Assembly (NCBI RefSeq): GCF_002222635.1
Contig: NZ_CP022415.1
Coordinates: 3,348,001-3,412,000, forward strand
Direction: 5' to 3'
Length of the DNA stretch: 64,000 nucleotides
Source of the DNA: Pseudosulfitobacter pseudonitzschiae
GTDB lineage: Bacteria; Pseudomonadota; Alphaproteobacteria; Rhodobacterales; Rhodobacteraceae
The position numbers and the translations under genes are program-made. Below are positions 32,940-52,988 of the stretch, in pieces. Below the pieces are notes generated by a model. The model searched no databases, was not told the DNA's origin, and saw only the letters and a list, made by a program, of their open reading frames with translations. Position 1 is the stretch's first letter. Each line of letters begins with the position of its first letter.

Positions 32940-34217
32940 TCACTCTGCCGTCCAGCGGGACCGGTCAGAGAAATCAGTGCAGAAGTGGTGCAGCAACCCG
33001 TCAGGATATCGCGCCGCCTGCTGTTTGAATTCATGTCGCGCAATGGTGCGGACATGGACCTCGTCGGGGCCGTCATAGATCCTGAGCGCCCTCATCCCGG
33101 CGAAAAAGTCAGCCACCGGACTGTCGTCAGTCACGCCCAGAGCGCCAAAGGTCTGAACCGCACGGTCGGCGACCTCGTAGCAGGCCCGAGCCACGGCCAG
33201 CTTGATCATCGAGATCTCGGCTTGCGCACCCTTGCCGCCTTTGGCGTCCAGAGCGGCAGCGGCGTTCATGACAAGCAGCCTTGCCTGCTCAAGTTCGATC
33301 CGGCTGTGCGCGACGAACTCCTGCACCTTGCCGTGATCCGCGATCTTTCGCCCGAAGGTTTCCCTCTTCTTCGCGCGCTCGCACATCAGCGAGAGCATTA
33401 GCTCTGCCCCGCCGATCGAACGCATGCAGTGGTGAATCCGGGCTGTCGCCAGACGGACCTGCGCCGCGGCGAACCCTTTGCCGCGCTCCCCCAGAAGGTT
33501 TTCTTTCGGTACCCGGACGTTGTCGAAAACGACTTCGGCATGCGGACGGGACCGATGTGCAAAACCCAGAACCGGGATGTTGCGAACGATATGCATGCCC
33601 GGCAGGTCGATCGGGACGATCAGCGCCGAGTGGCGGGCATAGGCAGAGGCGTCAGGGTCCGACACGCCGATCAGGACAGTGAAGCTCCAGCCCGGAACGC
33701 CGCTGTTTCCGGTGAACCACTTGTGACCGTTGACCAGCCAGTGGTCGCCCTTGTCTTCGATGCGGGTCGCGATGTTGCGTGCATCCGAAGAGGCGGTTTC
33801 CGGTTCGGTCATCGAGAATCCGGTGCAGATCGTCCCTTCCAGCATCGGTTTGAGCCAGCGTTCCTTCTGCTCTTCGCTGCCGATGGACACTAGCATCTCC
33901 ATCGTTGGGAGGTCGGGCGCGTGGCAATTGAACACCTCTGCCGCCCATTCGACCCAACCTAGCGTTTCAGCCATCGGTGCGAATTCGGTATTCGTCAGCC
34001 GTGTCCCCGGCGCCCAGTCAGGCAGGTTGGGAAGGCCGAGGTTCCAAAGCCCCTCGTCTCGCGCCATTCGCTTGAGGTCGGCGATGAACGCAGGTCTGGC
34101 GCCGGGCGGATTCGCCGCTGTGAAGGCCTTCACCTCCTTCACCCGCGGAAAGATTTCCTGCTCCATGATGGCCCGCATCCGGGTCCCGAGATCGGTTATC
34201 CTATGATCGTCCATCAT
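32940..34217 (-). CDS. acyl-CoA dehydrogenase, ACAD10/11-like
   Basis: This 425-residue flavoprotein introduces a double bond into an acyl-CoA and passes electrons to electron-transfer flavoprotein. The FAD/substrate blocks CTGFSMTEPETASSDARNI near residue 130 and WLVNGHKWFTGNSG near residue 162 are typical. The C-terminal GALGVTDDSPVADFFAGMRALR, then IYDGPDEVH, is the ACAD10/11-type ending, in which the glutamate of the usual GGxGYTxE motif is replaced. It is the last gene of the minus-strand catabolic operon and overlaps the crotonase gene as ATGA. The acyl chain it uses is unknown. Confidence 0.9.
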   Translation of the reverse strand: MMDDHRITDLGTRMRAIMEQEIFPRVKEVKAFTAANPPGARPAFIADLKRMARDEGLWNLGLPNLPDWAPGTRLTNTEFAPMAETLGWVEWAAEVFNCHAPDLPTMEMLVSIGSEEQKERWLKPMLEGTICTGFSMTEPETASSDARNIATRIEDKGDHWLVNGHKWFTGNSGVPGWSFTVLIGVSDPDASAYARHSALIVPIDLPGMHIVRNIPVLGFAHRSRPHAEVVFDNVRVPKENLLGERGKGFAAAQVRLATARIHHCMRSIGGAELMLSLMCERAKKRETFGRKIADHGKVQEFVAHSRIELEQARLLVMNAAAALDAKGGKGAQAEISMIKLAVARACYEVADRAVQTFGALGVTDDSPVADFFAGMRALRIYDGPDEVHVRTIARHEFKQQAARYPDGLLHHFCTDFSDRSRWTAE

Positions 34218-34993
34218 TCCCCCCTGAACGTCGGCCGGCGCTTTTCTAGGAATGCGGATGCACCCTCTGCGAAATCGTCGGTCATGAAATTGTCGATTGC
34301 CGTGTCGCGTTCCCAGCCCAGCACCGCATCCATCCCGGTGATGTCCTGAGCGAAGAAGCGTTTCACGGTGGTTTGCGCCAGCGGCGGGCCATAGGCGAGC
34401 TTCCGGCCCAGCTTCTGCGCCGCCTCCAATGCGCCGCCGTCGGGCGCGGGATAATCGGCCAGCCCCTGGGCCAGCGCCGCCGCCTGGTTGATTTCATCCC
34501 CGGTCAGCAAGAGCCGCTTGGCTGCCGCGCGTCCCATCCGGCGCGGCACCGACCAGAACATCCCGCCGTCCGGCGAGGCGCCGACGCGGATCTGGGCGGC
34601 ACAGAAACGTGCACCATCCGCGGCAACCACGAGATCACAGGCCGCGGCAAGTCCGACCCCGGCCCCGAACGCCGACCCTTCGACTGCCGCGATATAGAGC
34701 TTGTCCGACCTGAGGATGGTCCCGATCGTACCACCGCCCTTGGTGATCCTGTCCTCGAGTTCCGGGCGCGAGCGCAGCCCCTTAAGCACCTTGAGATTGC
34801 CACCGGCGGAAAACGTCCCGTTCGCGCCGGTCAGCACGAGCACCCGTTGTGTGTCATCGGCCTCGAAAGCGTCGATCGCCGCCGCCAGACCTTCCCGGAC
34901 GCCGGGGGCGCCCATGGAATTTCGATATTCGGGCGAGTCGACAGTCAGTGTGGTGACGGCCCCCTCTACCTCTGTTCTCACGACATCGTTCAT
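34214..34993 (-). CDS. enoyl-CoA hydratase/isomerase family protein
   Basis: This 259-residue crotonase-fold protein has the oxyanion-hole segment GANGTFSAGGNLKVLKGL near residue 55 and GSAFGAGVGLAAACDLVVA near residue 99. In ECH-type hydratases two glutamates do catalysis. Here the first position appears to be Gln (CAAQIRVG) and the second an Asp in SPDGG, a pattern seen in crotonase isomerases. It may therefore shift a double bond, or act on an unusual substrate, and not simply add water. I use ATG 34,993, in an ATGA overlap with the upstream gene. Confidence 0.85.
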   Translation of the reverse strand: MNDVVRTEVEGAVTTLTVDSPEYRNSMGAPGVREGLAAAIDAFEADDTQRVLVLTGANGTFSAGGNLKVLKGLRSRPELEDRITKGGGTIGTILRSDKLYIAAVEGSAFGAGVGLAAACDLVVAADGARFCAAQIRVGASPDGGMFWSVPRRMGRAAAKRLLLTGDEINQAAALAQGLADYPAPDGGALEAAQKLGRKLAYGPPLAQTTVKRFFAQDITGMDAVLGWERDTAIDNFMTDDFAEGASAFLEKRRPTFRGE

Positions 34994-36111
34994 GCGGCAT
35001 GCTCCTCTAATGCCAGGAATTTCGCTCTGAAGTGTTCGGCGCTGCCCAGCCAACGGCTCAGCACGTCAGTCCGCAGAAGGTGGTAGCCGACGCCGAGTTC
35101 ACGGGTCATACCGATCGCGCCGTGCAGGTGGATCGCCTCGCGCGCGACGAGGTCCCCGGTCTGAGTGGCGAGCGCCATGGCCGCCGCCACGTCGGACCGT
35201 GCCCTTCGCGAATACCCGCCGGACAGGGCGTTCGCGGCGCCCAGAACCTGCGACCGCAGCATCTCGATATCCGTGTGCAGATCGGCGGCCCGGAACTGCA
35301 GCGCCTGATTCGTCGCCAGCGGCTTGCCGAACTGTTCCCGCGTGCGCAGGTATTCCAGCGTCTGGGTCAGCGCCGCCTCGCACGAGCCGAGGATCTCCGC
35401 CGCAGCCGCGAAGGCAGCCAGCGTGAACGCCTGTTGAAGTGATGCGATGCCGTCGTCCGGTCCGATCAGGCGGGCGGAGGCTGGAACGCTCACCCTCTCT
35501 GCCTGGACCATGGCCCAGGTCGTACCATCCGTTGCCGGGTAAGGCGACACGGTCAGCCCCTTTGCGGCGGCGGGCATGAGGAACAGGCTGACCCCGGCCC
35601 GGTCCCGCGCCGAGACGAGGAAAACCTCGGCAGTTGCGCCTTCGGCCACATGGCTTTTGACGCCGGTAAGGCGATAGCCGTCGCCATCGGGTTCGGCCCG
35701 CATCGTCGGAACCTCGAAATCCCATCTTGTACCCGGCTCCATCACTGCGACCGCCACGGGCATCTCGCCGCCAGCCAACCGTGTCGCCAGATGCAACGCG
35801 TCTTCCCGGCCCGACCTTGCGAAAATCGCCCCGGGCAGGACGCAGCCGCCAATCAGGCCGTGATGCGTCGGCACACGTCCAAGGCCCCGGGCGAGCGTCA
35901 TCAGCAGGCGGGGGCCGCCATCCGCTCCACCCGCCGCCTCCGGCAGCCAGGCACCCCAGAGACCGAGCGAGCCGAGTTGCGCTCTGAGCGCCTTGGGCTC
36001 GGGCCGTAGCGCATGTCCGTCGATGCGCGGAGCTTTGTCCCGCGCTTCGCGCAATGCGCGGTCCAGCATGTCTTCGACCATGACTTCGTCTTCACTTGCC
36101 GCAAATCTCAT
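34990..36111 (-). CDS. acyl-CoA dehydrogenase (putative small/beta partner)
   Basis: This 373-residue protein has an acyl-CoA dehydrogenase fold with a shorter, more divergent N-terminus. FAD-site features are loose (VAVMEPGTRWDFEVP, then YRLTGVKSHVAEGATAEVF). The C-terminal block HLHGAIGMTRELGVGYHLLR keeps a glutamate at the catalytic position. Proteins like this often pair with a second dehydrogenase in alpha2-beta2 complexes, as in steroid side-chain degradation. The gene is separated from the upstream dehydrogenase by seven bases. I start it at ATG 36,111, with GAGGTG before it; GTG 36,117 is possible. Confidence 0.87.
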   Translation of the reverse strand: MRFAASEDEVMVEDMLDRALREARDKAPRIDGHALRPEPKALRAQLGSLGLWGAWLPEAAGGADGGPRLLMTLARGLGRVPTHHGLIGGCVLPGAIFARSGREDALHLATRLAGGEMPVAVAVMEPGTRWDFEVPTMRAEPDGDGYRLTGVKSHVAEGATAEVFLVSARDRAGVSLFLMPAAAKGLTVSPYPATDGTTWAMVQAERVSVPASARLIGPDDGIASLQQAFTLAAFAAAAEILGSCEAALTQTLEYLRTREQFGKPLATNQALQFRAADLHTDIEMLRSQVLGAANALSGGYSRRARSDVAAAMALATQTGDLVAREAIHLHGAIGMTRELGVGYHLLRTDVLSRWLGSAEHFRAKFLALEEHAA

Positions 36112-36118
36112 GGTCACC

Positions 36119-37306
36119 TCACAGGTTCAGAATATGTTTGGTGATGATGGTGCGCTGCACTTCCTGGCTCCCGCCCGCAATCGCGGGACCGCGCCACCAG
36201 TATCGCGACTCCGCTGCGTTGCGCGCTTCGGTCGGGACGATCCCGGCCAGCGCCTCGTCCTCCCACGCCGCCTGTGCGGGCAGCGCATCGGGGCCGAGAA
36301 GTTGCACGATCGCCCGGTCCAGCCGCTGGTTCACCTCGATACCCCGCAGTTTGAGGACAGAGGCGAACGGACCGATGCCGCCATCGTCGACCAGACGTTC
36401 CAGCGCCCGCATCGTCGCGTTTTCCAACGCCCGCAATTCGATCTTCCGCTTGGCGAGGTCATCGCGGAACTGGGCATCCTCAATGGCCGGACGCCCTTCG
36501 ATGCGCACCTCCTCTGACAGCCGCTCCAGCCGCCCCAGCTTCCGGCGCGCCTCGGTGTGACGGGCAGAGAACAACCGCTCATGCTCCAGCAGCGACTTGG
36601 CGATGCCCCAGCCCGCATTCTCTTCGCCGATGCGGTTCGCAACTGGAACGCGCACGTTGTCGAAGAAGAACTGGTTGAAGACATGCGCCCCGTAAAAATG
36701 GTGCACCGGACGCCGCGAAATTCCCGGTGTATCGAGGTCGATCAGCAGGAAGGAGACCCCGCCCTGCTGGCGTCCCTCGCGGGACGTCCGGACAAGGCAG
36801 AACATGTGATTGGCCAGGTGCCCTCCGGACGTCCAGATTTTGGTGCCGTTGACGACATAGTTATCGCCGTCCCGCTCGGCCCGCGTCTGAAGCGAGGCAA
36901 GGTCGGACCCCGCCCCCGGTTCGGAATAGCCCTGACACCAGACATGTTCGAAACTCAGCGCTTTCGGCAGGTAATGTGCCTTTTGCTCAGGCGAGCCATG
37001 GGCTTGCAGGATCGGGCCGATCATCTTGATGTTGAACGTTCCGACGAGCGGCGCACCATGGGCTGCCATCTCCTCCTCGAAGACGAAAAGCTTGCGCATG
37101 TTCCATCCGGATCCGCCCCACTCTTCGTCCCAGGAGGGCGCGCCCCAGCCACGGCCGACCAGTCTGGTCTGCCAGTCCAGCGACGCGGGTTCGCCGACCG
37201 GAAGGCCCAGATCGCTGAGCCGTCGGACTTCGGGATCCAGGTTGTCCTTGCAGAAGTCCGCAATTTCGGCCCGGAACGCGGCCTCGTTACCGGTGTGCAT
37301 GTTCAT
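36119..37306 (-). CDS. acyl-CoA dehydrogenase (putative large/alpha partner)
   Basis: This 395-residue flavoprotein has the standard motifs: WCQGYSEPGAGSDLASLQTR near residue 130, YVVNGTKIWTSGGHLANHMF near residue 155, and the C-terminal GPAIAGGSQEVQRTIITKHI. That ending is typical of the large subunits of heteromeric dehydrogenases that act on bulky acyl-CoAs. GGGGGAGA precedes ATG 37,306; a longer reading frame upstream is not needed. It follows the nitronate-monooxygenase-like gene with an ATGA overlap, and the putative partner dehydrogenase follows after seven bases. Confidence 0.9.
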   Translation of the reverse strand: MNMHTGNEAAFRAEIADFCKDNLDPEVRRLSDLGLPVGEPASLDWQTRLVGRGWGAPSWDEEWGGSGWNMRKLFVFEEEMAAHGAPLVGTFNIKMIGPILQAHGSPEQKAHYLPKALSFEHVWCQGYSEPGAGSDLASLQTRAERDGDNYVVNGTKIWTSGGHLANHMFCLVRTSREGRQQGGVSFLLIDLDTPGISRRPVHHFYGAHVFNQFFFDNVRVPVANRIGEENAGWGIAKSLLEHERLFSARHTEARRKLGRLERLSEEVRIEGRPAIEDAQFRDDLAKRKIELRALENATMRALERLVDDGGIGPFASVLKLRGIEVNQRLDRAIVQLLGPDALPAQAAWEDEALAGIVPTEARNAAESRYWWRGPAIAGGSQEVQRTIITKHILNL

Positions 37307-38400
37307 GCTGTCTCCCCCGAGAACTGGTAGGATCTTGCGAGTGCCAAGTCGCCCTCTCGGACCAGAGTGTTCATGACCTCGGACACCGGGCGCAGACGAT
37401 CGAACCACCCGATGCCCTGTCCTGCACCGTAGTGCTGCAACGGGCGGATATCGTGTTCGATGATCGCGCCAAGGATGTCTCCGACCAGTACGTCATGGAG
37501 TGGATGGCTCAGCGGTGCGGGGGCGTCGGGCAAGGTCCATTCCTCCGACCAGGCAGAACGGGTCTGGCGGAAGGGCTTTCCGCTTTCGGCCCGGCTGATG
37601 ACCGTGTCCGTGGCCTGTGCATTCAGAAGCGCGTCCATTTCGCCCTCCGACAGGTGTGGCCGATATTCTTCCGTCATCAGGAATGCGGTTCCGATCCAGA
37701 CACCCTGCGCACCAAGTGTAAGCGCGGCCGCGATATGCCGTCCGGTGGCGACCCCGCCTGCCGCCAGCACAGGGACCGAACCCGCCATGTCCACGATCCG
37801 GGGCACGAGCGAGAAGGTCCCGACCTGTCCGGTGTGACCGCCCGCGTCGTATCCCTGCGCCACCAGCAGATCGACACCTGCTTCGAGCGCACGCGCGGCA
37901 TGGCGCTCCTGTCCGACCAGGGCAACGGTCGTCTTGCCCTTGGACTTCATCAGCTTGACCACCTCGGGAGGGCAGCCGATGCCAAGCGCGACCATGTTGA
38001 CGTCGGACTCTGCCACCGCGGCGATCTGGCTGTCCTGGATCTCCTCCGACCGGATGAAGCGCGTGCGCATGCCCGGCTCCGAAGGCTTCGGAACGGCGTA
38101 CTTGGTTTCGAGCCCGTCGATGAATCTGCGGTGCGCCTCCGGCACCAGTTTCTCCAGCTCGGCCCGATCGTTCTTTTCCGGCACCTTGTTCGGAATGACG
38201 AGGTCGAGGCCAAACGGGCGCTCGCCGACGGCGGCGCGAATCTGTGCCACCTCATCCGTTATTTCTTCGGCAAGCCGCCGTGTCGCGCCATAGACGCCGT
38301 AGCCCCCGGCATTGGTCACGGCCGCGACAACCTCCACCGCGTGACTGAAGCCAAAGATCGGCACTTCGATTCCGAATCGCTCGCAAAGCTCTGTTTTCAT
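37303..38400 (-). CDS. nitronate monooxygenase / 2-nitropropane dioxygenase-like FMN enzyme
   Basis: This 365-residue TIM-barrel flavoprotein begins MKTELCERFGIEVPIFGFSH. The FMN/active-site loop AQGYDAGGHTGQVGTF near residue 188 contains the histidine that acts as base in nitronate monooxygenases. The phosphate-binding part AAGGVATGRHIAAALTLGAQ follows near residue 218. Such proteins oxidise alkyl nitronates, but many of this family occur in acyl-CoA catabolic clusters with unknown role. GGAGGAGG precedes the start. It is the first gene of the five-gene minus-strand operon and faces the TetR gene. Confidence 0.85.
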   Translation of the reverse strand: MKTELCERFGIEVPIFGFSHAVEVVAAVTNAGGYGVYGATRRLAEEITDEVAQIRAAVGERPFGLDLVIPNKVPEKNDRAELEKLVPEAHRRFIDGLETKYAVPKPSEPGMRTRFIRSEEIQDSQIAAVAESDVNMVALGIGCPPEVVKLMKSKGKTTVALVGQERHAARALEAGVDLLVAQGYDAGGHTGQVGTFSLVPRIVDMAGSVPVLAAGGVATGRHIAAALTLGAQGVWIGTAFLMTEEYRPHLSEGEMDALLNAQATDTVISRAESGKPFRQTRSAWSEEWTLPDAPAPLSHPLHDVLVGDILGAIIEHDIRPLQHYGAGQGIGWFDRLRPVSEVMNTLVREGDLALARSYQFSGETA

Positions 38401-38517
38401 TGGGTCCTCCTCCAAGTCACCTCAGACACGTTTGCGATCCCGAGACATGGAACCCTCGCCTATCGATGGCGCGGCAGCTATTATCCCAAATCGTCAGGCC
38501 GCGTATTACGGAATCTG

Positions 38518-38537
38518 AATAATTGAAGTACATTATT
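38518..38537. promoter_or_regulatory. inverted repeat in the divergent promoter region of the cargo
   Basis: AATAAT and ATTATT flank eight bases. It lies in the 182-base gap between the divergent nitronate-monooxygenase-like and TetR genes, 46 bases before the TetR start. A TetR operator controlling both operons would be expected here; the repeat is A/T-only, so support is weak. Confidence 0.3.
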
Positions 38538-38582
38538 TTCTGAGTAGAAAAAAGAATCAACCGTAGATGTGAGGGGCCGCCC

Positions 38583-39299
38583 ATGGATGGACAAAACGAG
38601 CTAAGCGATACCAAGATGGGACTGCTTCTTGCAGCGGAGCGGCTTTTCGCGACGCAGGGCATTGCCGCAACTACCATCCGGCAGATCAACACTGAGGCCG
38701 GACAGAAGAACAGTTCGGCGATCCACTACCACTTCGGATCTCGCGATGCGATTCTCGACGCCATCATCGCGATCCGGGTCGTTCCCGCCAACGCACAGCG
38801 AGAGCAGATGCTGAAGGAAGCGCGCCTCGCCGCGGGCGGCGGACCACTATCCACGGAAACCATAATCAACCTGCTTCTTCAGCCGGGGATCGAACGCTTG
38901 GCCTCCACTCAAGGACCTCATTATTCTCAAAGATTTTTGATTCAGCTTCGCATGAACATTGAAGCCTGGCGCCGCTATGAGCGGGAGCGCCAAGCCTGGA
39001 CCCTGGTTGAACTACAGGATGAATTGCGCCGCGCCCGCCCGCATCTTCCCGCCCAGGTCGCGCGCGGCCGTTTCCGGAACGCCGTCAATTTTTCGATGTT
39101 CGAAATGGCGGAAATCGAAGGCGCGGAAGACAGGCTGGGCGCGCGATACAGCCGCGACGAGGCCCTCTTCCGGATCGAGGAACTTCGGTCGATTCTCGTG
39201 ACGATGCTGGACGCTCCGATTCCTGCGCGAACCGCGGATGCCTTGCGTAAGATTGCCGACAAGCCTGGGGTTACCTCTCCACAATCCGCACCTGAGTAA
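38583..39299 (+). CDS. TetR family regulator of the catabolic cargo
   Basis: This 238-residue regulator has the TetR helix-turn-helix at residues 12-60 (LLAAERLFATQGIAATTIRQ, then SSAIHYHFGSRDAILDAI). The ligand domain fills the rest and resembles those of fatty-acid or acyl-CoA-responsive TetR proteins only in a general way. It lies between the divergent halves of the cargo, so it probably represses both operons until a pathway intermediate binds. The start is ATG 38,583, preceded by GAGGGG. Confidence 0.9.
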   Translation: MDGQNELSDTKMGLLLAAERLFATQGIAATTIRQINTEAGQKNSSAIHYHFGSRDAILDAIIAIRVVPANAQREQMLKEARLAAGGGPLSTETIINLLLQPGIERLASTQGPHYSQRFLIQLRMNIEAWRRYERERQAWTLVELQDELRRARPHLPAQVARGRFRNAVNFSMFEMAEIEGAEDRLGARYSRDEALFRIEELRSILVTMLDAPIPARTADALRKIADKPGVTSPQSAPE

Positions 39300-39372
39300 T
39301 TGACTTCCATTAAATCCTGTGTTGATCTGACCGAGGAACTGGATTGGAGACCTGTTCCAACGGAGGAGATTC

Positions 39373-41256
39373 ATGGTACTTACACTCTCGCGCAAGATCG
39401 GGCTGATGCTTGGCGCGCTTCTGGCTCTGCAGGCGATTTACACGGCTTATTTTGGGATGTTCGATCCGGGACTGCATCGCCCCATTGCGTTCGGCGTCTG
39501 CATTCTGGCTGCCGTCCTGTTCAAGCCTCTCGCCGCCCGGCTTGCGAACCCGACCTTGGGCAAGGTGGCATTGTGCTGGACGATCGACACCGCGGTCCTC
39601 GTCGTCATCTTCGTTGCCTTGCATCGCTTCATTGCCAGTGCAGACGCGATGGAAAACATGCTGATCAGCTACTCCGTGTCGGATCAGTGGCTCGCTCTGC
39701 TCGCGCTTTGCGCCTGCGTGGAACTGACCCGGCGTGAGTTTGGACTTGGCCTGACACTGGTTGCGGGCGGTGTGCTCGCCTACGTGCTCTGGGGTGAAAG
39801 CCTTCCCGGCATGTTCCGCCATGCAGGCTTCACCCTCGACCAGATCGTGCAGGGGACATGGTACGGCTATGCTGGTGTCTTTGGCCTGCCCGTGTCCGTC
39901 GTGATCGAGCTTCTGTTCATCTACATCGTGTTCGGTATGGTGCTGGAAGCCACCGGCGCGGGCCACGCGCTGATCCGCATCGCGGTCCGGCTGACCGGGC
40001 ATATCGCGGGCGGGCCCGCCCATGCTTCCATCGTCGCGTCGACCCTTTTCGGGTCGATGTCGGGGTCCGTCACGGCTAACGTGGCCGGCACCGGGACATT
40101 CACCATCCCAATGATGAAACAAAAGGGGTTCCGGCCTGAATTTGCGGGGGCCGTCGAAGCCGCGGCGTCGACCGCCGGGCAGTTCATCCCGCCCGTGATG
40201 GGGGCCGTGGCCTTCATGCTCGCCCAATTGACAAGCACTCCCTACCTGCTGGTCTGCATCGCGGCCATCGTCCCGGCCGCGGCTTATATCGCGGCGCTGG
40301 TGCTAGCGGTCTGGCTGGAGGCCCGGCGCAGCGGAATCGGCGCAACGGCCCCCGAGGACATGCCCGTACTGAATCGACGCGACGCGATCGAGAGCCTGAT
40401 GTTCATCATTCCGATTCTGACCGTCATCGGCATCCTCCTGATGGGCCGGTCCCCGGCAATGGCAGGCTTCGGCGCGACGATCTCGGCGCTGGCCCTCGGC
40501 TTCCTTAATCCCGAAGTCCGCCGCAACCCGTGGAGACTGGTCGAAGCGTTGGCCAAGGGCGGCATCTCGGGCGCACGGATCATGATCGCCGTCGGTGCCA
40601 TCGGTATCGTCGTGGCCGGCATGAACCTGACCGGACTTGGTCTCAACTTCGCCCAGGCGGTCGGATCGCTCGGCTCTCAAAGCCTGTTCCTGTCGCTGAT
40701 CCTGACGGCCCTGGCCTGTCTGGCACTCGGGATGGGAATGCCCACTCTGCCCGCCTACCTGATCATCGTGCTGGTGATGGGCCCTGCCTTGTCGGCCATG
40801 GGCGCCCCCCGGATCGCCGTGCACATGTTCGTGCTGTACTATGCGGTACTGTCCGCGATCACCCCGCCGGTGGCCCTCGCGGCGTTCGCGGCAGCCCCGA
40901 TTGCCGACGCTAACCCGATGAAGATCGGCGTCGTTGCAATGCGACTGACGATCGTCGGCTTCATCGTGCCGTTCCTCTTCGTCTTGAACCCGTCACTCCT
41001 GCTGATCCATAACTTCGACCTGGCCGATTTCACTATCGGCATGCTGCGGATCGTCTGCATCACGTGGGCACTGTCCGCCGCGCTGGCCGGCTTCGGCCTC
41101 TCCCGTCTGCAACCGGTCTGGCGCGGCGCGTACATCGTGGCGGCGGGGCTTTGCCTGGCCCGTGGCACGGAAATCGACGTGATCGGCTTCGGCCTGGTTG
41201 CCACCCTGCTCGCGGCAGAAGTGTTCCGCCATCGTACTCACCCAAGAACTGTTTGA
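39373..41256 (+). CDS. TAXI-type TRAP transporter, fused permease
   Basis: This 627-residue inner-membrane protein fuses the small DctQ-like and large DctM-like TRAP subunits, as in TAXI systems. The N-terminal part (residues about 1-150) has four or five helices. The DctM-like part has FGSMSGSVTANVAGTGTFTI near residue 228, which is the conserved transport core, and FIPPVMGAVAFMLAQLT near residue 272. A second core block GMGMPTLPAYLIIVLVMGPA lies near residue 455. It works with the TAXI binding protein two genes downstream. GGAGGAG precedes the start. Eight bases separate it from the first DUF1254 gene. Confidence 0.9.
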   Translation: MVLTLSRKIGLMLGALLALQAIYTAYFGMFDPGLHRPIAFGVCILAAVLFKPLAARLANPTLGKVALCWTIDTAVLVVIFVALHRFIASADAMENMLISYSVSDQWLALLALCACVELTRREFGLGLTLVAGGVLAYVLWGESLPGMFRHAGFTLDQIVQGTWYGYAGVFGLPVSVVIELLFIYIVFGMVLEATGAGHALIRIAVRLTGHIAGGPAHASIVASTLFGSMSGSVTANVAGTGTFTIPMMKQKGFRPEFAGAVEAAASTAGQFIPPVMGAVAFMLAQLTSTPYLLVCIAAIVPAAAYIAALVLAVWLEARRSGIGATAPEDMPVLNRRDAIESLMFIIPILTVIGILLMGRSPAMAGFGATISALALGFLNPEVRRNPWRLVEALAKGGISGARIMIAVGAIGIVVAGMNLTGLGLNFAQAVGSLGSQSLFLSLILTALACLALGMGMPTLPAYLIIVLVMGPALSAMGAPRIAVHMFVLYYAVLSAITPPVALAAFAAAPIADANPMKIGVVAMRLTIVGFIVPFLFVLNPSLLLIHNFDLADFTIGMLRIVCITWALSAALAGFGLSRLQPVWRGAYIVAAGLCLARGTEIDVIGFGLVATLLAAEVFRHRTHPRTV

Positions 41257-41264
41257 GGGCCCGG

Positions 41265-42560
41265 ATGCTACAGACCACCACACGCACGGACCTGCGCGCC
41301 ATCGCGCGAGAGGCCTACGTCTTCACTCTGCCGCTGGTCGCGATGGAAAGCTTTCGGCGGCGCAGGATGACACTCGGTCCGATGAACGACATGTTCCACG
41401 CGCGCAAACTGCTGCACTTCAAGTCGCGTCACATCACCGCCCCGAACAATGACACGCTTTATTCCAATGCGTGGCTTGACCTCCGGCAGGGTCCGGCAAT
41501 GTTCGACCTGCCCCCGACGGATGAGCGCTATGTCTCTGTCGCGGTCATGGACATGTGGACAGACAACATCGCCATCCTCGGGACCCGTACCACGGGCGGA
41601 AACGGCGGCCGCTTCACGATCATCGGCCCTGACGCGTCGGCCGAGGGCATCGAGGGGCCTGTCGTGCGGTCGACCACGCCGATCTGCTGGGTTCTCGCCC
41701 GGATTCTCGTGACCGGCCCAGAAGATATTGCCGCGGCGCGGGCCGTTCAGGACGGTCTCGTCCTTAAGATGGCGCCGCCGCCGAACGCGCAAGCCGATGA
41801 TCCGGCACAAGGCACCCGTACCGCCGCCTGGGCCGAATACTTTGCCCAGGCGGCGGACCTGCTGCGCCTTCACCGCCCACGGGCGACCGACATGGGTGTG
41901 ATGCAGCGCATTGCCCCGCTCCGTCTGAACGCCACAGATGGGTTCGACCCAGCCCGTTTCAGCACGGAAGAGGCCGAAGAAATCGCCGCAGGCGTATCTG
42001 ATGCCCGCCGCGCCATCGAAGGCGGCATGATCATGGCCGAGGGCGGGGATGGCTGGCTCGACCCGAAGACCGGACTGGGCTTCTACAACCAGGATTACGA
42101 ATTCCGCGCCCGCGTTGCTGTCGGAGGCCTTGGCGCCCTTACGCTGGAAGAGGCGACCTATTACCCTGCCACGTCGTTCGGCAGCCAGCCGCTGGACGGT
42201 CGTCAAATGATGCACTGGCACATCCCAGCGGACCGGCAGATCCCAGTGAACGCCTTTTGGTCGTTGTCGATGTACGAGCCGACCGAAGACGGAGAGCTGT
42301 TCTTTATCGAAAACCCGCTGTCTCGGTACGCCATCGGCGACCGGAGCCCCGGGCTCACACGCAATGCCGACGGATCGCTCGACATCTGGATCGGTCATGC
42401 ACCCCCCGGACCGGACCGGGAGGCCAACTGGCTTCCTGCCCCTTGCGGACCCTACACGCTCTTGCTGCGTGCCTATTTTGCGAAACCGGAGCTGCTAGAG
42501 GGCCGTTACACGATCCCCGTCCCGCAGCCCGTCCATTGGGAGGAGGAGACCCCAAAATGA
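41265..42560 (+). CDS. DUF1254 domain-containing protein, first copy
   Basis: This 431-residue protein has an N-terminal DUF1254 region with the block SRHITAPNNDTLYSNAWLDL near residue 52. The C-terminal DUF1214-like region has PVNAFWSLSMYEPTEDGELF and the ending GPYTLLLRAYFAKPELLEGR. There is no signal peptide, so it should be cytoplasmic. The family has no established activity that I can name. The gene sits between the TRAP permease (8-base gap) and the TAXI binding protein (ATGA overlap), which strongly suggests a role tied to the imported substrate. It is a paralog of the protein at 43,700. Confidence 0.85.
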   Translation: MLQTTTRTDLRAIAREAYVFTLPLVAMESFRRRRMTLGPMNDMFHARKLLHFKSRHITAPNNDTLYSNAWLDLRQGPAMFDLPPTDERYVSVAVMDMWTDNIAILGTRTTGGNGGRFTIIGPDASAEGIEGPVVRSTTPICWVLARILVTGPEDIAAARAVQDGLVLKMAPPPNAQADDPAQGTRTAAWAEYFAQAADLLRLHRPRATDMGVMQRIAPLRLNATDGFDPARFSTEEAEEIAAGVSDARRAIEGGMIMAEGGDGWLDPKTGLGFYNQDYEFRARVAVGGLGALTLEEATYYPATSFGSQPLDGRQMMHWHIPADRQIPVNAFWSLSMYEPTEDGELFFIENPLSRYAIGDRSPGLTRNADGSLDIWIGHAPPGPDREANWLPAPCGPYTLLLRAYFAKPELLEGRYTIPVPQPVHWEEETPK

Positions 42561-43588
42561 CCAAGATGAACCGCCGCACGGCCATGACCAGCATGGCGGC
42601 CCTAAGCCTCGCTTCGACGGCGATACCTGCGTGGGCCTTGCAGGAAAACCTGCGTGTGCACACCAGTTCGCCGGGCAGCACCGGCTTTACCTTCACCACG
42701 ACCATGCAGACAATCGTCCAGCGTGAGACGCCCATCCGCATGAGCGTGACCTCGGGTCAGACCTCGACCCGCTCCACGCTTGACGCGGCAAACGGCAATG
42801 TCGACCTCTTCATCTCGTCCCCGGCGATCAATCACTACATGAAGAACGGCACTCAGATGTTCAAAGACATGCCGAATGCGTCCGACCTGTTCCGGAACGT
42901 CCGGCAGGTGGTGAATTTCCCGCTTGGGCCGTACCATATCATCACCTACGCGGATTCCGGCATCGAAACGCTTGAGGACTGCCGCGGTCGCCGCATCTTT
43001 ATCGGCCCCCCGGGCGGCGCGGCAACGACCGTCGGTCTGGCCATCATGGAAAGCGCCACGGGCATGAAGCCGGGTGATTACGAGCAGGCAAAACTCGACT
43101 GGTCCTCGGGCCAGCAGGCGTTTCAGGACCGTCAGGTCGATCTCGCGATCATCCCGACAGAGCTTCCCTCGGCTGCGATCATGCAATTCGCGCTTCTGGG
43201 CAAGATCAAGCTGATCACGATCCCCGACGAGGCCTTCACGAAGAGCCCGCTCGCCGACATGCTCAAGATTCCGGGGCGTACGATCACCGATATCGCCCCC
43301 GACATTTACGGCGAAAACCAGATCAACGACGAACCCATCAAAGCCGTCGGAAGCTGGGTCGGCATCGGGTCGCACACGGGCGTCGATGCTGACACGGTCT
43401 ATGCTGTGACCAAGGCCATGTTTGACAACATCGCCGATATGCATGCGACCGCCGAATGGATGAATGTCTTCACGGCGGAAACCGCGCTGCTTCAGTTGAA
43501 CGCACCGGTCCACGCCGGAGCGTACCGCTGGTACAAGGAAAACGGCATCCCTGTGCCGGAAGAGTTCATCCCGCCAGAAGCGTCCTAA
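42557..43588 (+). CDS. TAXI family TRAP transporter solute-binding protein
   Basis: This 343-residue periplasmic protein captures the substrate for the fused TRAP permease. The N-terminus MTKMNRRTAMTSMAALSLAS is a signal peptide with a twin-arginine pair, and cleavage is likely after IPAWA. The mature protein begins QENLRVHTSSPGSTGF, and GRRIFIGPPGGAATTVGLAI near residue 143 is the TAXI-family core. The overlap with the DUF1254 stop indicates coupled translation. The substrate cannot be read; known TAXI proteins bind glutamate, ketoglutarate or other carboxylates. Confidence 0.88.
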   Translation: MTKMNRRTAMTSMAALSLASTAIPAWALQENLRVHTSSPGSTGFTFTTTMQTIVQRETPIRMSVTSGQTSTRSTLDAANGNVDLFISSPAINHYMKNGTQMFKDMPNASDLFRNVRQVVNFPLGPYHIITYADSGIETLEDCRGRRIFIGPPGGAATTVGLAIMESATGMKPGDYEQAKLDWSSGQQAFQDRQVDLAIIPTELPSAAIMQFALLGKIKLITIPDEAFTKSPLADMLKIPGRTITDIAPDIYGENQINDEPIKAVGSWVGIGSHTGVDADTVYAVTKAMFDNIADMHATAEWMNVFTAETALLQLNAPVHAGAYRWYKENGIPVPEEFIPPEAS

Positions 43589-43699
43589 GTGCGACGCCAC
43601 CACCGCGCCGGATCTTGTTTCGGCGCGGGCAGACCTTTTGCACTGCCGCGAAACGACAGATCTACGAGACCCGGTCAATGCGGCCACAGGAATGGATAG

Positions 43700-44977
43700 A
43701 TGCCCCGAGACACTGAAACTGACGCGCCCGCCGATTTCTCTGCCATTGCAGCCCAAGCATATACTTATGCAATGCCTTTGCTGGCGCTTGAAACGTTCCG
43801 GCGACGTCGCATCGAAAACGGTGCCATGCATCGGATGATGCACTACCGTGACCTGCTGACGCCGGACGACCGCCAGATCACGACCCCCAACAACGACACG
43901 CTTTACACCGACCTATGGCTCGATCTTGATCGCGGGCCTGCGCGTGTCACCGTGCCGGGCACGCAGGGCCGCTATATTTCGCTGCATTTGCTGGACGCCT
44001 ACACCAACACGATCGCCGTGCTCGGCTCAAGAACGACGGGACCGGACGCCATTGAAGTCACGCTGGTCGGTCCGACCGCATCCACCGAAGGGATCGAGGG
44101 GCCGGTGGTCCGATGCGCGACGCCGACCGTATTGGGGCTGTACCGCATTCTGGCGGACAACCCCGACGATGTGACATGGCCACGTGGCATTCAGGATGAG
44201 ATTACCCTAGATGCCCCGGCTTACGATGGCGACGAACTCCCCCCGGTCGATCGTCATGCCTCGTGGCAGAGCTTTTTCACCGAAGCCAACCGCTTGATCC
44301 GAAAGAACCCGCCCCCCGCGACCGATACCGAGATCCTGCGCCGCATCGCGCCCCTCGGTATCGGCCCCGACACCGTTTTCGATCCGTCGCGCTTTACCGG
44401 GGAAGAAGGCGAAGCAATCTCCGAAGGCCTGCGACGATGTTCGGACCGGATGGCCCGCATTCAGGCCTCCATGGGACGGGGCGGTGCAGGCTGGGTGCCG
44501 CCACGCCGCAACCTCGGGGTCTATGGGCAGGACTATTTCCTGCGCGCGGTCGTTGCGGTCGGTGGCCTGGGGGCCCTGCCGCTGGAAGAGGCCAGCTATT
44601 TCCGCTCCGGCGGCGTGGGTGGTGAGCCGTTCGTCGGCTCCCGCGCGTGGCGGCTGCACTTCCCGGCGGACCGGATGCTGCCGACAGAGGCGTTCTGGTC
44701 CCTGTCGCTCTACGAGCCGACGCCGGAGGGCGAGTTCTATTTCGTCCATAATCCCGCGAACCGATATGCCGTCGGCGACCGCACGCCGGGATTGAAATGG
44801 AACGCGGACGGGTCACTCGATATCTGGATCGGTCATGACAGCCCCGGCGCAGACCGGGAATCGAACTGGCTGCCCGCACCGCCGGGACCGTTCCAACTGT
44901 TCCTGCGGGCCTACCTACCCCGGATCGAACTGCTCGAGGGGCGCTACAAGATACCCGATCCCGAGCTTGTCGGCTGA
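43700..44977 (+). CDS. DUF1254 domain-containing protein, second copy
   Basis: This 425-residue paralog of the protein at 41,265 shares the block DRQITTPNNDTLYTDLWLDL near residue 56 and the C-terminal PTEAFWSLSLYEPTPEGEFY. It ends with GPFQLFLRAYLPRIELLEGR. Both copies lack signal peptides. They differ in many positions, so the duplication is not recent, and two non-identical subunits or two substrates are possible. The gene starts 111 bases after the TAXI protein and ends 133 bases before the CoA ligase gene. I know no proven function for the family. Confidence 0.85.
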   Translation: MPRDTETDAPADFSAIAAQAYTYAMPLLALETFRRRRIENGAMHRMMHYRDLLTPDDRQITTPNNDTLYTDLWLDLDRGPARVTVPGTQGRYISLHLLDAYTNTIAVLGSRTTGPDAIEVTLVGPTASTEGIEGPVVRCATPTVLGLYRILADNPDDVTWPRGIQDEITLDAPAYDGDELPPVDRHASWQSFFTEANRLIRKNPPPATDTEILRRIAPLGIGPDTVFDPSRFTGEEGEAISEGLRRCSDRMARIQASMGRGGAGWVPPRRNLGVYGQDYFLRAVVAVGGLGALPLEEASYFRSGGVGGEPFVGSRAWRLHFPADRMLPTEAFWSLSLYEPTPEGEFYFVHNPANRYAVGDRTPGLKWNADGSLDIWIGHDSPGADRESNWLPAPPGPFQLFLRAYLPRIELLEGRYKIPDPELVG

Positions 44978-45110
44978 CGCCGGGAACCCACACCAACTAC
45001 GAACAGGCCCGCGGACGAAAGTATTCAGATCGGTTCGGGTCGCGCACATTGATCGAACAAGTTCGTCTGCACGGCTTACGCCGCCGCAGAGGCAAAAAAG
45101 GGAGAGAACT

Positions 45111-47207
45111 ATGGACGGCGAAATCGGCTCGCTTCAGCGTTTGTTTTATCCGCGCTCTATCGCAGTGATCGGGGCATCGTCGGACCCGGGCAAGATCGGC
45201 GGCAGACCGATCGACTTTCTCAAGCGCTCAGGCTTCGAAGGGCGCATCGTTCCGGTGAATCCAAAGGCGGCCACGGTTCAGGGGCTTCCTGCCTTTCGAT
45301 CGATCGGCGATGCGGGTCAGGTCGATCTGGCCATCTGCGCCGTGCCCGGTAAGTTTGCAGAACAGGTGGTCGATGAATGCGTGGCCGCCAGCGTCGGCGC
45401 ACTGGTCATGTTCTCTTCCGGCTTTGCAGAGCTGGGCGACGAAGGCCGCGAAATCCAGGAGCGGATGGCCGCCAAGGCCCGCGCCGGAGGCATGCGCATG
45501 GTCGGGCCGAACTGCATGGGCGTGGCCACGATGAGCACCGGCATGGTCGCGACCTTCCACCCCGCCTTTGCCAAGGTCGAAACCCTGCCCCGCGACGGTC
45601 GCATTGCGCTAATCAGTCAGTCCGGCGCCTTTGGCGGGCTCTGCGTCCAGATGGCAAACAACCGGGGTATTGGCATTTCCCACATGGTCACGACTGGCAA
45701 CGAAGGGGACGTGGACGTTTCCGATGCCCTGGCCGAATTGGCGCAGGACCCCAACGTCGACGTGATCCTGATCTACCTCGAAGGGTGCCGCAACGGTCCC
45801 GGCTTGATCCGAGCCCTGGAAATCGCCCGCGCCAATCGCAAGCCGGTGGTCGCCGTGAAGCTGGGCCGGACCGAGGTAGGGGCCGAAGCCGCGCAGTCCC
45901 ACACCGCCGCACTGGCCGGGTCGGACGCCGTGTTCGACGCCATGTTCCGCCAGTTCGGAGTCTACCGCGCCCGCAACATCGAAGAGTTCCTCGATATCGG
46001 CTGCGCCCTCTCCATTGGCGGCCTTCCTGCGAACAACCGGATCGCGATTGTCACCCCTTCGGGCGGAGTCGGCATCCTTATGGCTGACGAGGCAGAGGAG
46101 CGCGGACTGGACGTCGCGCCCTTGCCTGAAACGGTGCAGCGCCGGTTCAAGGAGCTGATCCCCTTCGCCGGCGTCCGCAATCCGCTGGACGTGACCGCGC
46201 AGGTGGTCTCAGACTTGACGTTGTTCGAACAGGCCCTTGAACTGGTCCTCACGGAAACCGATTTCGGCAGCGTCGTATGTTTCCTCGGGGCCGCGACCAA
46301 CGACCCGAACCACGGCAAAGTCCTGCTCGAAAGCTGGGACCGCGTGCGCGCCGCGCATCCCGATCGACTGATGATCGCGCCGGGGATGCATCCGCCTGAA
46401 GTCGCGCGAGGTCTAGAAGCCAAGGGAACATATGCCCCGATCGAGCCGACCTACGGTCCGCGGGCCGTGGCAGCCGCATGGTACTTTACGCAGAGCTTTG
46501 CGAACGCCGTGGACCGGCCCGCCGTGACGGCCGGAAGCCAACTGCCCAAAGGTCAGTTGAACGAAATCGAGGCAATGGATGTTCTGGGCGCGGCTGGGCT
46601 GCCTGTCATCACCGAACGGCTGGCCAAGACTGCCGAAGAGGCCGTCACCGCCGCAAGAGAGATCGGCTTCCCAGTCGTGATGAAATTGCTGTCGCCGGAT
46701 ATCCTGCACAAGTCCGACATCGGGGGAGTGAAGCTGGGCCTGCGAGACGAAGCCGCGGTCCACGCCGCCTTCGCCGCGATCATGGAGGCCGGAGCCACTG
46801 TGGCAGACGCCCGGATTGACGGCTGCGTCGTCGCGCCAATGGTCTCGGGCGACGGGGTCGAAACGATACTGGGCGTCACAATCGACCCGACTTTCGGGCC
46901 GGTTGTCATGTTCGGTCTGGGCGGCGTTCTGGTCGAGGCCATGGGCGACGTCAGCTTCCGCGTCGCACCGGTCGACCACATGCAGGCGCGCGCCATGATC
47001 GACGAAATACGGGCCCGCAAGGTGCTGGACGGTGTCCGGGGCGCTCCGCCCTCCGATCTCGGGGCGCTGGCCGATGCCATTGTCGCCCTTTCCGTGTTCG
47101 CAGCAGCCCATGCCGATCAGCTGGTTTCGATCGAGGCAAACCCGGTGCTGGTCCGGCCGGATGGTCAGGGGGCCATCGCTTTGGATGCCGTTGTCGTGAC
47201 CAAATGA
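45111..47207 (+). CDS. ADP-forming acyl-CoA synthetase (acetate-CoA ligase family)
   Basis: This 698-residue enzyme couples ATP hydrolysis to ADP with formation of an acyl-CoA. Domains in order: CoA-binding Rossmann-like domain (residues 10-140; SIAVIGASSDPGKIGGRPID), two ligase/flavodoxin-like domains with the phosphohistidine segment QSHTAALAGSDAVFDAMF near residue 263, and an ATP-grasp domain from about 480 (FPVVMKLLSPDILHKSDIGG near 521; GLGGVLVEAMGDVSFRVAP near 602). GGGAGAG precedes ATG 45,111; a longer frame into the DUF1254 gene is not accepted. In this cluster it probably activates the imported acid. Confidence 0.9.
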   Translation: MDGEIGSLQRLFYPRSIAVIGASSDPGKIGGRPIDFLKRSGFEGRIVPVNPKAATVQGLPAFRSIGDAGQVDLAICAVPGKFAEQVVDECVAASVGALVMFSSGFAELGDEGREIQERMAAKARAGGMRMVGPNCMGVATMSTGMVATFHPAFAKVETLPRDGRIALISQSGAFGGLCVQMANNRGIGISHMVTTGNEGDVDVSDALAELAQDPNVDVILIYLEGCRNGPGLIRALEIARANRKPVVAVKLGRTEVGAEAAQSHTAALAGSDAVFDAMFRQFGVYRARNIEEFLDIGCALSIGGLPANNRIAIVTPSGGVGILMADEAEERGLDVAPLPETVQRRFKELIPFAGVRNPLDVTAQVVSDLTLFEQALELVLTETDFGSVVCFLGAATNDPNHGKVLLESWDRVRAAHPDRLMIAPGMHPPEVARGLEAKGTYAPIEPTYGPRAVAAAWYFTQSFANAVDRPAVTAGSQLPKGQLNEIEAMDVLGAAGLPVITERLAKTAEEAVTAAREIGFPVVMKLLSPDILHKSDIGGVKLGLRDEAAVHAAFAAIMEAGATVADARIDGCVVAPMVSGDGVETILGVTIDPTFGPVVMFGLGGVLVEAMGDVSFRVAPVDHMQARAMIDEIRARKVLDGVRGAPPSDLGALADAIVALSVFAAAHADQLVSIEANPVLVRPDGQGAIALDAVVVTK

Positions 47208-49545: not shown

Positions 49546-49901
49546 CATCGGGAATGCTCCGCGACGATCTCGGCAAGCTGGCGGTTCAGCGCCATCAGCA
49601 ACGTGCGGACGGCGATCAGGTCGATTTCGCGCCCCGCTTTGCGATCGGTGTTCATGGCGCGGGCGATCTGGTTCAAATTGCCGCCCGCGCGCCCAACCGC
49701 CGCGAGCAGCACCGGATCGACATCCGGTGGCCGCAAGCGCCGCTGCATGGGTTCTTCAGACAGAACGTGGCGGGCATAGTCGGACAGGGATCGCTCCTGA
49801 GAGCGGGCTTTGCACAGCCATGCAGCACGCTCCTCCTCTGTGCAGCGCACCCGCAAAACCAGTTCGCGCACCACACGAGGTTTCGGCTCTCGCTTATTCA
49901 T
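49545..49901 (-). CDS. mobC: mobilization accessory protein MobC
   Basis: This 118-residue protein helps the relaxase open DNA at oriT. The pattern LVLRVRCTEEERAAWLCKAR, then SLSDYARHVLSEEPMQRR is a ribbon-helix-helix type DNA-binding region, and VGRAGGNLNQIARAMNTDRK near residue 75 is the classic MobC block. AGGTGG precedes ATG 49,901. The gene leads the mobilization operon, and a large hairpin that could be oriT lies 70 bases upstream. Confidence 0.85.
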   Translation of the reverse strand: MNKREPKPRVVRELVLRVRCTEEERAAWLCKARSQERSLSDYARHVLSEEPMQRRLRPPDVDPVLLAAVGRAGGNLNQIARAMNTDRKAGREIDLIAVRTLLMALNRQLAEIVAEHSR

Positions 49902-49968
49902 ACCGGCCACCTAACGCGCTCTGCGCGCCGGGTTTGGGGTCGAGGGGAAAGGGCCTGCCCATTCCCTC

Positions 49969-50036: not shown

Positions 50037-51125
50037 TCATGGGTTGCCTCCCGACCGAAGCAACGCATGTGTCAGCTCTCCGACCAAGCCGTCGAGAACG
50101 GCGATCTGTCTGGCTTCTTTTCGGACCATCCCTGCAAACGAAGCAGCTGCGTTTTTCCTGCCAAAGGGGCCATCCCTCTGCGAATTTCGATCCGCCACGA
50201 TCAGACAAAGCGCGGTCCTGGCCTCGCCAATTTGCGTGCATCTCTCTCGCCATAACCGGCTGGAAATGCCCAGTTCATAGGCGCGATCATGCGCCGCTCG
50301 CGTGACTGTTTTCCAATCAGGCGGACCACCACAGGCATACAGATCAATGTACTCGCCCAGCAGTGGTCCCGCCAAAAGCCGGGCATGGGCCGGGCTGGTG
50401 TTCAACCGGCCTTCTTCCCTCGGTTTCTCAGCGATACGAATTTTCTTTTTCTTTTCTTCATTCGTATTGAGTCGGACATTTTCGTCTGACTCGACGGTCA
50501 TTTCTGGCTGACCGCCAACCGCCGAAAAATCTGCAAGCACGGCTTCCAACGCCTCGGCGACTCCCTGCATTTTTTTGAAGTCGCTCAGCTCGGTTGGGCG
50601 ACGGCGCGGCAAGATACAGGTGGCCGCCTCATCGGCATCAACGTTTTCCAGATCCCGTATCTGCCGGAAGAGGCCTTGAATATGCTCGCGCAGCAGCTTG
50701 CGCTCTTCATCGGCCCGCATCTGCCGACTGGCCAAAGCGCGAACGTACTCCGCCTGCTCGATAAGCGGGGCCAGATTGATACCTGCTGCACGCTTAATTA
50801 CACCCTCGACGCGGTCACCGGAGCGACTTTTGCGCTCTGGGTACGTGCGCTTTATCAGCCCCACGTCAACAAGTTCAGCTTCGATCCGCCCGACCTGTCG
50901 TTTTGACACACGAAAGACTGTTCCAAGCCGCTCCAATGAATACCAGATGGCGCAGATCCGGCCTTGCTGGAAATCGGACGCCTGACAGTTATCAATCGCG
51001 AATTCGAGATATCTAAGTGCTCCGCTCGAAAGGCCGAGCGCAATCCTCGCCTGCTGTAGCAGCAGCTTCAGTCGGAATGGTGGAATGCCATCCGGCAAAC
51101 CGCCATGTGTGAGCTGCTGCGTCAT
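50037..51125 (-). CDS. repC: RepC-like plasmid replication initiator
   Basis: This 362-residue protein resembles the RepC initiators of alphaproteobacterial repABC plasmids. The N-terminal domain contains GIPPFRLKLLLQQARIALGL and the DNA-binding segment FRVSKRQVGRIEAELVDVGL near residue 78. Its C-terminal domain has the RepC-like NSQRDGPFGRKNAAASFAGM segment and ends with MVRKEARQIAVLDGLVGELT. No repA or repB partition genes are present, so this is an orphan repC. In repABC plasmids the replication origin lies inside repC. I start it at ATG 51,125; 51,140 is possible. It suggests the island was once, or can become, a replicating circle. Confidence 0.78.
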   Translation of the reverse strand: MTQQLTHGGLPDGIPPFRLKLLLQQARIALGLSSGALRYLEFAIDNCQASDFQQGRICAIWYSLERLGTVFRVSKRQVGRIEAELVDVGLIKRTYPERKSRSGDRVEGVIKRAAGINLAPLIEQAEYVRALASRQMRADEERKLLREHIQGLFRQIRDLENVDADEAATCILPRRRPTELSDFKKMQGVAEALEAVLADFSAVGGQPEMTVESDENVRLNTNEEKKKKIRIAEKPREEGRLNTSPAHARLLAGPLLGEYIDLYACGGPPDWKTVTRAAHDRAYELGISSRLWRERCTQIGEARTALCLIVADRNSQRDGPFGRKNAAASFAGMVRKEARQIAVLDGLVGELTHALLRSGGNP

Positions 51126-51147
51126 GACCGCACCTCCCATCCCGAGC

Positions 51148-51355: not shown

Positions 51356-51372
51356 TCCTGCCGGGGTCACCA
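51356..51372 (+). repeat. right attachment site (attR), copy of the tRNA-Arg 3' end
   Basis: TCCTGCCGGGGTCACCA matches the tRNA end at 21,665-21,681 at 16 of 17 positions, in direct orientation. The preceding GGTTCG also matches but with a different spacing. The chromosomal Anbu gene ends 27 bases beyond. A simple hairpin is an alternative reading, because CCCCG and CGGGG flank it, but no T-run follows. Confidence 0.7.
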
Positions 51373-51398
51373 GTGTACCTCTGGGACCGGACGCCTGT

Positions 51399-52136: not shown

Positions 52137-52170
52137 GATGAGTAATCCACAGCAGATTCGATGCTTGTGA

Positions 52171-52968: not shown

Positions 52969-52988
52969 CTGAGGGATCCTGCCTGTGA

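Follow-up and report, generated by a model that had tools for sequence, protein, structure and literature searches.

The gene cluster described here lies at positions 32940-47207 of a stretch of 64,000 nucleotides from Pseudosulfitobacter pseudonitzschiae (contig NZ_CP022415.1; this whole stretch is called the window below), and it joins parts that resemble several described systems to two proteins of the DUF1254/DUF1214 type, called D1 and D2. As in TAXI-TRAP transporters, the importer has a binding protein and a fused permease, both of which score above their NCBIfam cut-offs, but a DUF1254 gene stands between the two. Two adjacent dehydrogenase genes, ACADl and ACADs, are like those of the large and small subunits of the pimeloyl-CoA dehydrogenases PimC and PimD, with TIGR03204 and TIGR03203 as their best NCBIfam models, although their scores fall far below the cut-offs. 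A third dehydrogenase, ACAD3, shares R, H, R and a catalytic D with the LvaC/ACAD10-ACAD11 pathway for 4-hydroxy acids, as set out in PMC12440821, whereas the cluster has no LvaA-like kinase and contains instead an importer, an ADP-forming ligase and DUF1254 proteins. The alkyl sulfatases SdsA1 and Pisa1 are resembled, through PF14863 and PDB matches, only by proteins in the clusters of relatives; these differ in their losses of metal ligands and in length (about 417-444 as against 633-668 residues), and the window cluster itself has no gene of this type.

For DUF1254/DUF1214 proteins, the available parts of three papers deal with regulation and with a modelled jelly-roll hydrolase and contain no tested reaction (PMC6710368, PMC3751524, PMC4634964), and a VPA0735-like fold is listed in PMC2744874. 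No tested reaction was found in the available portions of the open literature searched.

The cluster is a mobile, recurrent import-and-oxidation module in which DUF1254 is a replaceable yet repeatedly recruited part. Our tentative preference is for a horizontally acquired catabolic module for a small organic anion, in which D1 and D2 would carry out an early cytoplasmic step and the anion would be an acid of organosulfur or similar oxyanion-bearing type.

Organization of the cluster

Ten structural genes, rather than the nine counted in a first-pass annotation made from the sequence alone, and one TetR gene make up the cluster, and their family matches are far beyond chance:

32940-34217, minus strand: ACAD3, acyl-CoA dehydrogenase of ACAD10/11-LvaC type (PF00441; best PDB match ACAD11, 334.5 bits)
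34214-34993, minus strand: crotonase, of the enoyl-CoA hydratase/isomerase family (PF00378, 143.7 bits)
34990-36117, minus strand: ACADs, acyl-CoA dehydrogenase like the pimD small subunit (TIGR03203, 154.3 bits, cut-off 652.7)
36119-37306, minus strand: ACADl, acyl-CoA dehydrogenase like the pimC large subunit (TIGR03204, 313.8 bits, cut-off 623.85)
37303-38400, minus strand: flavoprotein like nitronate monooxygenase (NMO) and FabK (PF03060, 173.2 bits; FabK, the best NCBIfam model, 154.1, cut-off 453.1; PDB matches)
38583-39299, plus strand: TetR-family regulator, leading the plus-strand genes (PF00440)
39373-41256, plus strand: fused TRAP permease (TIGR02123, 488.6 bits, above the cut-off of 320.65)
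41265-42560, plus strand: D1, DUF1254+DUF1214 protein (PF06863, 137.6 bits; PF06742, 80.8 bits)
42557-43588, plus strand: TAXI-family binding protein (TIGR02122, 137.9 bits, above the cut-off of 84.35)
43700-44977, plus strand: D2, second DUF1254+DUF1214 protein (PF06863, 116 bits; PF06742, 90.4 bits)
45111-47207, plus strand: ADP-forming acyl-CoA ligase of 698 residues (PF13549, PF13607, PF13380)

The genes stand divergently on both sides of the TetR gene, as the first-pass annotation had described, in the order ACAD3, crotonase, ACADs, ACADl and NMO-like gene by coordinate on the minus strand, where three of the four gene junctions are 4-bp overlaps (start codons inferred). TetR probably governs both divergent transcripts; no inverted repeat of at least 8 bases was found between the NMO and TetR genes (seed of 6, arms at most 40 apart). 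D1 begins 8 bases past the TRAP permease, and the start codon of TAXI lies inside the D1 stop, so that the earlier description of a DUF1254 gene between permease and binding protein, in an ATGA overlap and followed by a second copy, is accurate. The TAXI protein has a signal-like sequence at its N-terminus.

We infer the direction of flow, like the substrate class and the role of DUF1254 discussed below. Judging from the families, a small organic anion would be imported by TAXI and the fused TRAP permease, the ADP-forming ligase would make its CoA thioester in the cytoplasm, and the CoA ester would then be oxidised by the three dehydrogenases, the crotonase and the NMO-like flavoprotein. On this view the D1/D2 pair would most likely unmask the imported compound early, before or at CoA activation.

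The DUF1254/DUF1214 proteins

D1 and D2 are 50-51% identical, and in each both the DUF1254 and the DUF1214 domains score above the Pfam cut-offs. Their N-termini lie just ahead of the first conserved helix and no signal peptide is visible; both proteins are therefore presumably cytoplasmic. When the 101 DUF1254 stretches in the fetched loci were sorted by the sequence upstream of this helix, 45 showed a strongly hydrophobic segment and 31 did not, eight were too short (under 12 residues) and 17 were unreadable by the motif, a crude count in which some starts of open reading frames (ORFs) are wrong.

An alignment of 38 chosen DUF1254 proteins has 26 invariant columns, including six Arg, zero His and zero Cys. 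D1 and D2 are among these 38 rows, and both therefore retain the invariant residues. Six invariant Arg with no His or Cys would point to an anion site rather than to a classical metallohydrolase. By sequence, the solved relative of D1 is 3u07, which is uncharacterised.

A search with D1 at E <= 0.001 gave no match in five same-genus genomes, and D1-like genes (E <= 1e-70) occur in one of 394 genomes of the family, which is the window's own. In the stretches fetched around DUF1254 genes of six further genomes of the class (L033-L042), nothing matches TAXI, TRAP or the ligase at E <= 1e-5. In two Caulobacteraceae loci, L058 (8535-11236) and L062 (8653-11107), an NMO-family gene adjoins DUF1254 (by Pfam in L058, by tblastn only in L062); the window cluster likewise holds both.

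Recurrence of the cluster

When 398 genomes of the phylum were searched with TAXI, a 52% relative turned up in genome G949, which lies outside the window's class because it is labelled as of the same phylum. Such TAXI proteins are found in seven of the 46 genomes of its family, all of them of genus g775, and all seven g775 loci (L176, L198-L203) contain TetR, TRAP, TAXI, ligase, DUF1254, a PF14863-type protein of metallo-beta-lactamase (MBL) fold, ACADl, ACADs and crotonase. Identities to the window proteins are 60-62% for TRAP, 48-51% for the ligase and 48-51% for DUF1254 (to D2). A porin gene lies between the MBL and ACADl genes (Pfam, L199 only), two TAXI genes flank the CoA ligase in five of the seven clusters (L199-L203), and a further, divergent PF14863-type gene is present in five of the seven loci (Pfam, L198 only). 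Searches of these clusters at E <= 1e-12 detected neither NMO nor ACAD3.

The association of DUF1254 with TAXI thus extends to a distant lineage and is not confined to that of the window, and the two halves of the cluster are not separated where it occurs (the window and 7/7 g775 loci), the second half in g775 consisting of ACADl, ACADs and crotonase. At E <= 1e-90, DUF1254 of the g775 type is restricted to four of 341 genomes of the order, all g775, and the TAXI-DUF1254 form is therefore real but rare.

A second form is seen in the six f82-A loci, where TetR, TauD, TRAP, TAXI, ligase and NMO genes are accompanied by a divergent ACAD3 (Pfam on L148 only), with identities to the window of 53-54% for the ligase, 53-55% for NMO and 49-50% for ACAD3. 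TauD here occupies the place of the window DUF1254. Searches of these DUF1254-free clusters did not find ACADl, ACADs or crotonase. The analysis does not establish the earlier suggestion that the genes outline a full pathway for a single carboxylic acid. No published description of such a cluster (TAXI-TRAP with alkylsulfatase, or sulfatase with CoA ligase) was among the matches listed.

Replacement of DUF1254 beside TAXI

In sister clusters, the place of DUF1254 is taken by a dioxygenase like TauD, by an enzyme of the sulfatase family or by a relative of the alkyl sulfatases, mostly a degenerate one. Sixteen lineages of window-related TAXI proteins were compared, drawn in part from a search of the class in which 13 of 385 genomes, the window's own included, had such a TAXI; L181 (a 3.4 kb contig holding just TRAP and TAXI) and six of seven plasmid TAXI matches were left out before counting. 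Apart from the f82-A form with TauD, there is f82-B, whose four loci have a PF14863-type protein, together with TauD in one, and G772 has a PF14863-type protein with an intact metal motif. A sulfatase-family protein stands beside TAXI in g528 (two loci), G643, G1029, G149 and Paroceanicella (annotated record); it was called as PF00884 by Pfam in L152 and L158, and elsewhere through NCBIfam sulfatase models, all below cut-off. No sulfur-type gene or DUF1254 was found within 4 kb of TAXI in f82-C, G682, G674, G736, G462 and G751. The luciferase-like neighbour in L155 might have been an alkanesulfonate monooxygenase, but this idea was dropped, since its NCBIfam matches are to other luciferase-like (LLM) subfamilies, all below cut-off.

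Of about 125 TAXI matches above the cut-off, 21 belong to the clade, and 40 of the other 104 served as hand-picked controls across the same genomes. Queries derived from the clade place any such gene or DUF1254 near TAXI in 10/16 lineages as against 1/40 control loci. Queries from outside the slot were also used, TauD from a gene 6 kb off a clade TAXI (L157) and SulfI from the one positive control (L215). Within 4 kb, these detect SulfI or TauD in 7/16 lineages against 1/40 control loci (p = 3.3e-4), SulfI, TauD or MBL in 9/16 against 1/40 (p = 1.3e-5), and the same with DUF1254 added in 10/16 (p = 2.2e-6), and the ligase is near TAXI in 3/16 lineages against 0/40 controls (p = 0.02); all these p-values are rough, because lineages are set against loci, two unlike units, and because sister genomes supplied some controls that nearly duplicate one another. 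A TauD fragment was seen at the edge of one control, L218, in an earlier look at 1e-5. Because families of sulfate-ester and sulfonate enzymes, or degenerate alkyl-sulfatase relatives, hold the place beside TAXI, an organosulfur or oxyanion-bearing acid is favoured, and the substrate is possibly an organosulfur or a 4-oxygenated acid.

Besides the roughness of the p-values, several observations weigh against this reading. DUF1254 taken alone is near TAXI in only 2/16 lineages against 0/40 controls (p = 0.078, equally rough), and six of the 16 lineages have none of the slot genes within 4 kb. No TAXI or TRAP match occurs at any of the 80 named DUF1254 loci, which are the best 80 of at least 585 relatives and several of which have short flanks; the functional unit proposed in the first-pass annotation does recur, but its TAXI-linked form is rare by both counts. 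No recognised sulfur enzyme is present in the window, and the g775 MBL protein finds no more than a 33-bit match in the genome to which the window belongs. The TauD of f82-A scores above the taurine dioxygenase cut-off (333.2 against 313) and is thus a sulfonate rather than a sulfate-ester enzyme, and the TauD-like protein of L148 fits taurine dioxygenase better than AtsK (266 against 184 bits). The PF00884-type proteins are under every NCBIfam cut-off, and the SulfI motif, CG[SA]SR in L158, L164 and L186, reads CMP[AN]R in L152, L154 and L185. The MBL neighbour in g775 matches PF14863 and, in the PDB, Pisa1 and SdsA1. PF14863-type proteins of L098, L110, L151, L153, L199 and both L245 copies have HxHxGYN for HxHxDH, however, and later metal ligands are also replaced in the fully aligned L098, L151 and L199 (L151 being without DUF1254); the motif is intact in L161 and the second L198 copy. 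With most of their metal ligands gone, the MBL proteins that accompany DUF1254 do not demonstrate sulfatase activity; this loss and the better fit of the TauD-like enzyme to taurine dioxygenase weaken the sulfatase argument.

The degenerate alkyl-sulfatase-like lineage is kept beside binding proteins, and in L098, L110, L199 and L245 also beside ADP-forming ligases.

DUF1254 with ligases and other importers

Six of the same 80 DUF1254 loci have a ligase match, and five of these, at 45-49%, are Burkholderiales loci with two DUF1254 genes in tandem. The five share the order Crp-type regulator, ligase, TctC, DUF1254, DUF1254, PF14863-type protein and TctC (Pfam on L110 only), and four of them also contain a porin gene. 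The linkage of DUF1254 to ADP-forming CoA ligases therefore extends to Burkholderiales, through other DUF1254 lineages and with TctC in place of TAXI. By tblastn, C. campinensis has two DUF1254 genes in tandem, ligase (43%), porin, TctC, ACADs (35%) and ACADl (47%). Plasmid pBB2 of C. necator N-1 carries two PF14863-annotated proteins, three TctC and a ligase, but its stretch contains no DUF1254.

In a tree of 66 of the 99 DUF1254 sequences, D1 and D2 come out as each other's closest relatives (100/97) and next to g775 (99/97), and the two Burkholderiales lineages are placed apart from them. A quick ligase tree, support values aside, joins the window ligase to f82-A and the g775 ligase to Burkholderiales. 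From the two trees the modules seem to reassort, and DUF1254 may have been recruited separately.

Proposed oxidation of the CoA ester

An alternative that we regard as quite possible, if on balance doubtful, is a plain acid route, in which an ordinary branched, cyclic or 4-hydroxy acid would be degraded, DUF1254 would be accessory (a chaperone or a binder of CoA intermediates), and the sulfur enzymes elsewhere would reflect changed importer substrates. The PimC/PimD-like dehydrogenases, the crotonase and the ACAD11-like enzyme suit CoA-ester oxidation, the window is without a sulfur enzyme, and in L157, where the neighbours of TAXI include ACAD3, NMO and a CoA-transferase, no sulfur enzyme occurs within 4 kb. 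Against this, the pimC and pimD scores are far under their cut-offs, the slot pattern is non-random, and the pairing of separate DUF1254 lineages with ADP-forming ligases argues for a real step.

ACAD3 bears on the preferred reading, on this route and on a further one. Its closest solved relatives are ACAD11 chains (334.5 bits), and R, H and R helix residues with a catalytic D are named for the 4-phosphoacyl-CoA site of ACAD10/11-LvaC in PMC12440821. All four are retained in ACAD3 when it is aligned to the ACAD11 chains, a reading that assumes a one-residue chain offset, which is supported by the D-to-N variant chain 8v3v. They occur in six of eight printed rows, namely the window, the four f82-A loci checked and L157, the other two being other dehydrogenases. 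No kinase gene of LvaA type was found by Pfam in the window cluster. Five matches to APH-family kinases lie elsewhere in the window genome, the two strongest with other acyl-CoA dehydrogenase genes within ~6 kb, and such kinases could phosphorylate a 4-hydroxyacyl-CoA in trans, which would suit the plain acid route.

Alternatively, the imported acid could bear a 4-sulfate ester, and ACAD3 could remove sulfate from the 4-sulfooxyacyl-CoA, as ACAD10/11 act on the 4-phosphate, with the DUF1254 pair preparing or shuttling the ester. The retained residues would fit, as would the lack of a kinase gene in the cluster and among the f82-A and L157 neighbours scanned with Pfam, although these were few. 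We nevertheless consider sulfate elimination improbable: the g775 clusters gave no ACAD3 match, and the text of PMC12440821 contains no 'sulf-' word. Members of the ACAD10/11 family are not known to eliminate sulfate.

The integrative island

The cluster lies within an island of ~29.7 kb (21605-51373), with an integrase at the tRNA end and MobC/NikA-like and RepC-like genes at the other:

21605-21681, plus strand: tRNA-Arg (CCT), the integration site (ARAGORN); its last 17 bases, 21665-21681, form the left att repeat
21762-22763, minus strand: phage-integrase-family integrase, adjoining the tRNA (PF00589, 50.4 bits)
49545-49910, minus strand: MobC/NikA-like mobilisation protein (PF21983, PF05713)
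50037-51140, minus strand: RepC-like replication protein (PF03428, 58.8 bits)
51357-51373, plus strand: right att repeat (16/17 bases as in the tRNA-Arg 3' end)

Two relatives of the same genus, G001 and G003, align with the window as far as 21682, at the end of tRNA-Arg, and resume at 51381 and 51399, respectively; the island is absent from their tRNA-Arg site, which carries ~2.6 and ~1 kb of other DNA. A third relative, G004, matches only to 21682 on the stretch fetched. The integrase, the repeats, the tRNA site and the island-free relatives together identify the catabolic cluster as cargo of an integrative element. An ORF of 566 residues without a Pfam match (47848-49548), possibly a relaxase at a guess, separates the cargo from the mobilisation genes. 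Directly after the island, in conserved backbone, a row of proteasome-like, transglutaminase and Alpha-E genes occupies 51399-53930.

A location on such an island would also suit DUF1254 genes that had merely been captured by it and have no role in the pathway. This is very improbable in view of the ATGA coupling of D1 to TAXI, of the same association in 7/7 g775 genomes and, with other DUF1254 lineages, in Burkholderiales, and of the retention of the invariant residues by both D1 and D2, two of the 38 rows that define them.

Implications

A bolder extension of the organosulfur reading, which we consider unlikely, is that DUF1254/DUF1214 pairs represent a new kind of cytoplasmic enzyme that opens imported organosulfur acids (sulfate esters or sulfonates) for CoA-dependent breakdown without metal, formylglycine or 2-oxoglutarate. 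They would then do the work of classical sulfatases and of TauD-type dioxygenases, in a module spread by integrative elements and assembled separately with TAXI-TRAP and TctC-type importers.

DUF1254/DUF1214 proteins are widespread, and this locus sets two of them inside a small mobile pathway that leads from importer to CoA ester and has relatives in distant bacteria. The natural replacements of DUF1254 narrow the possible reaction, and the function of the family thereby becomes directly testable.

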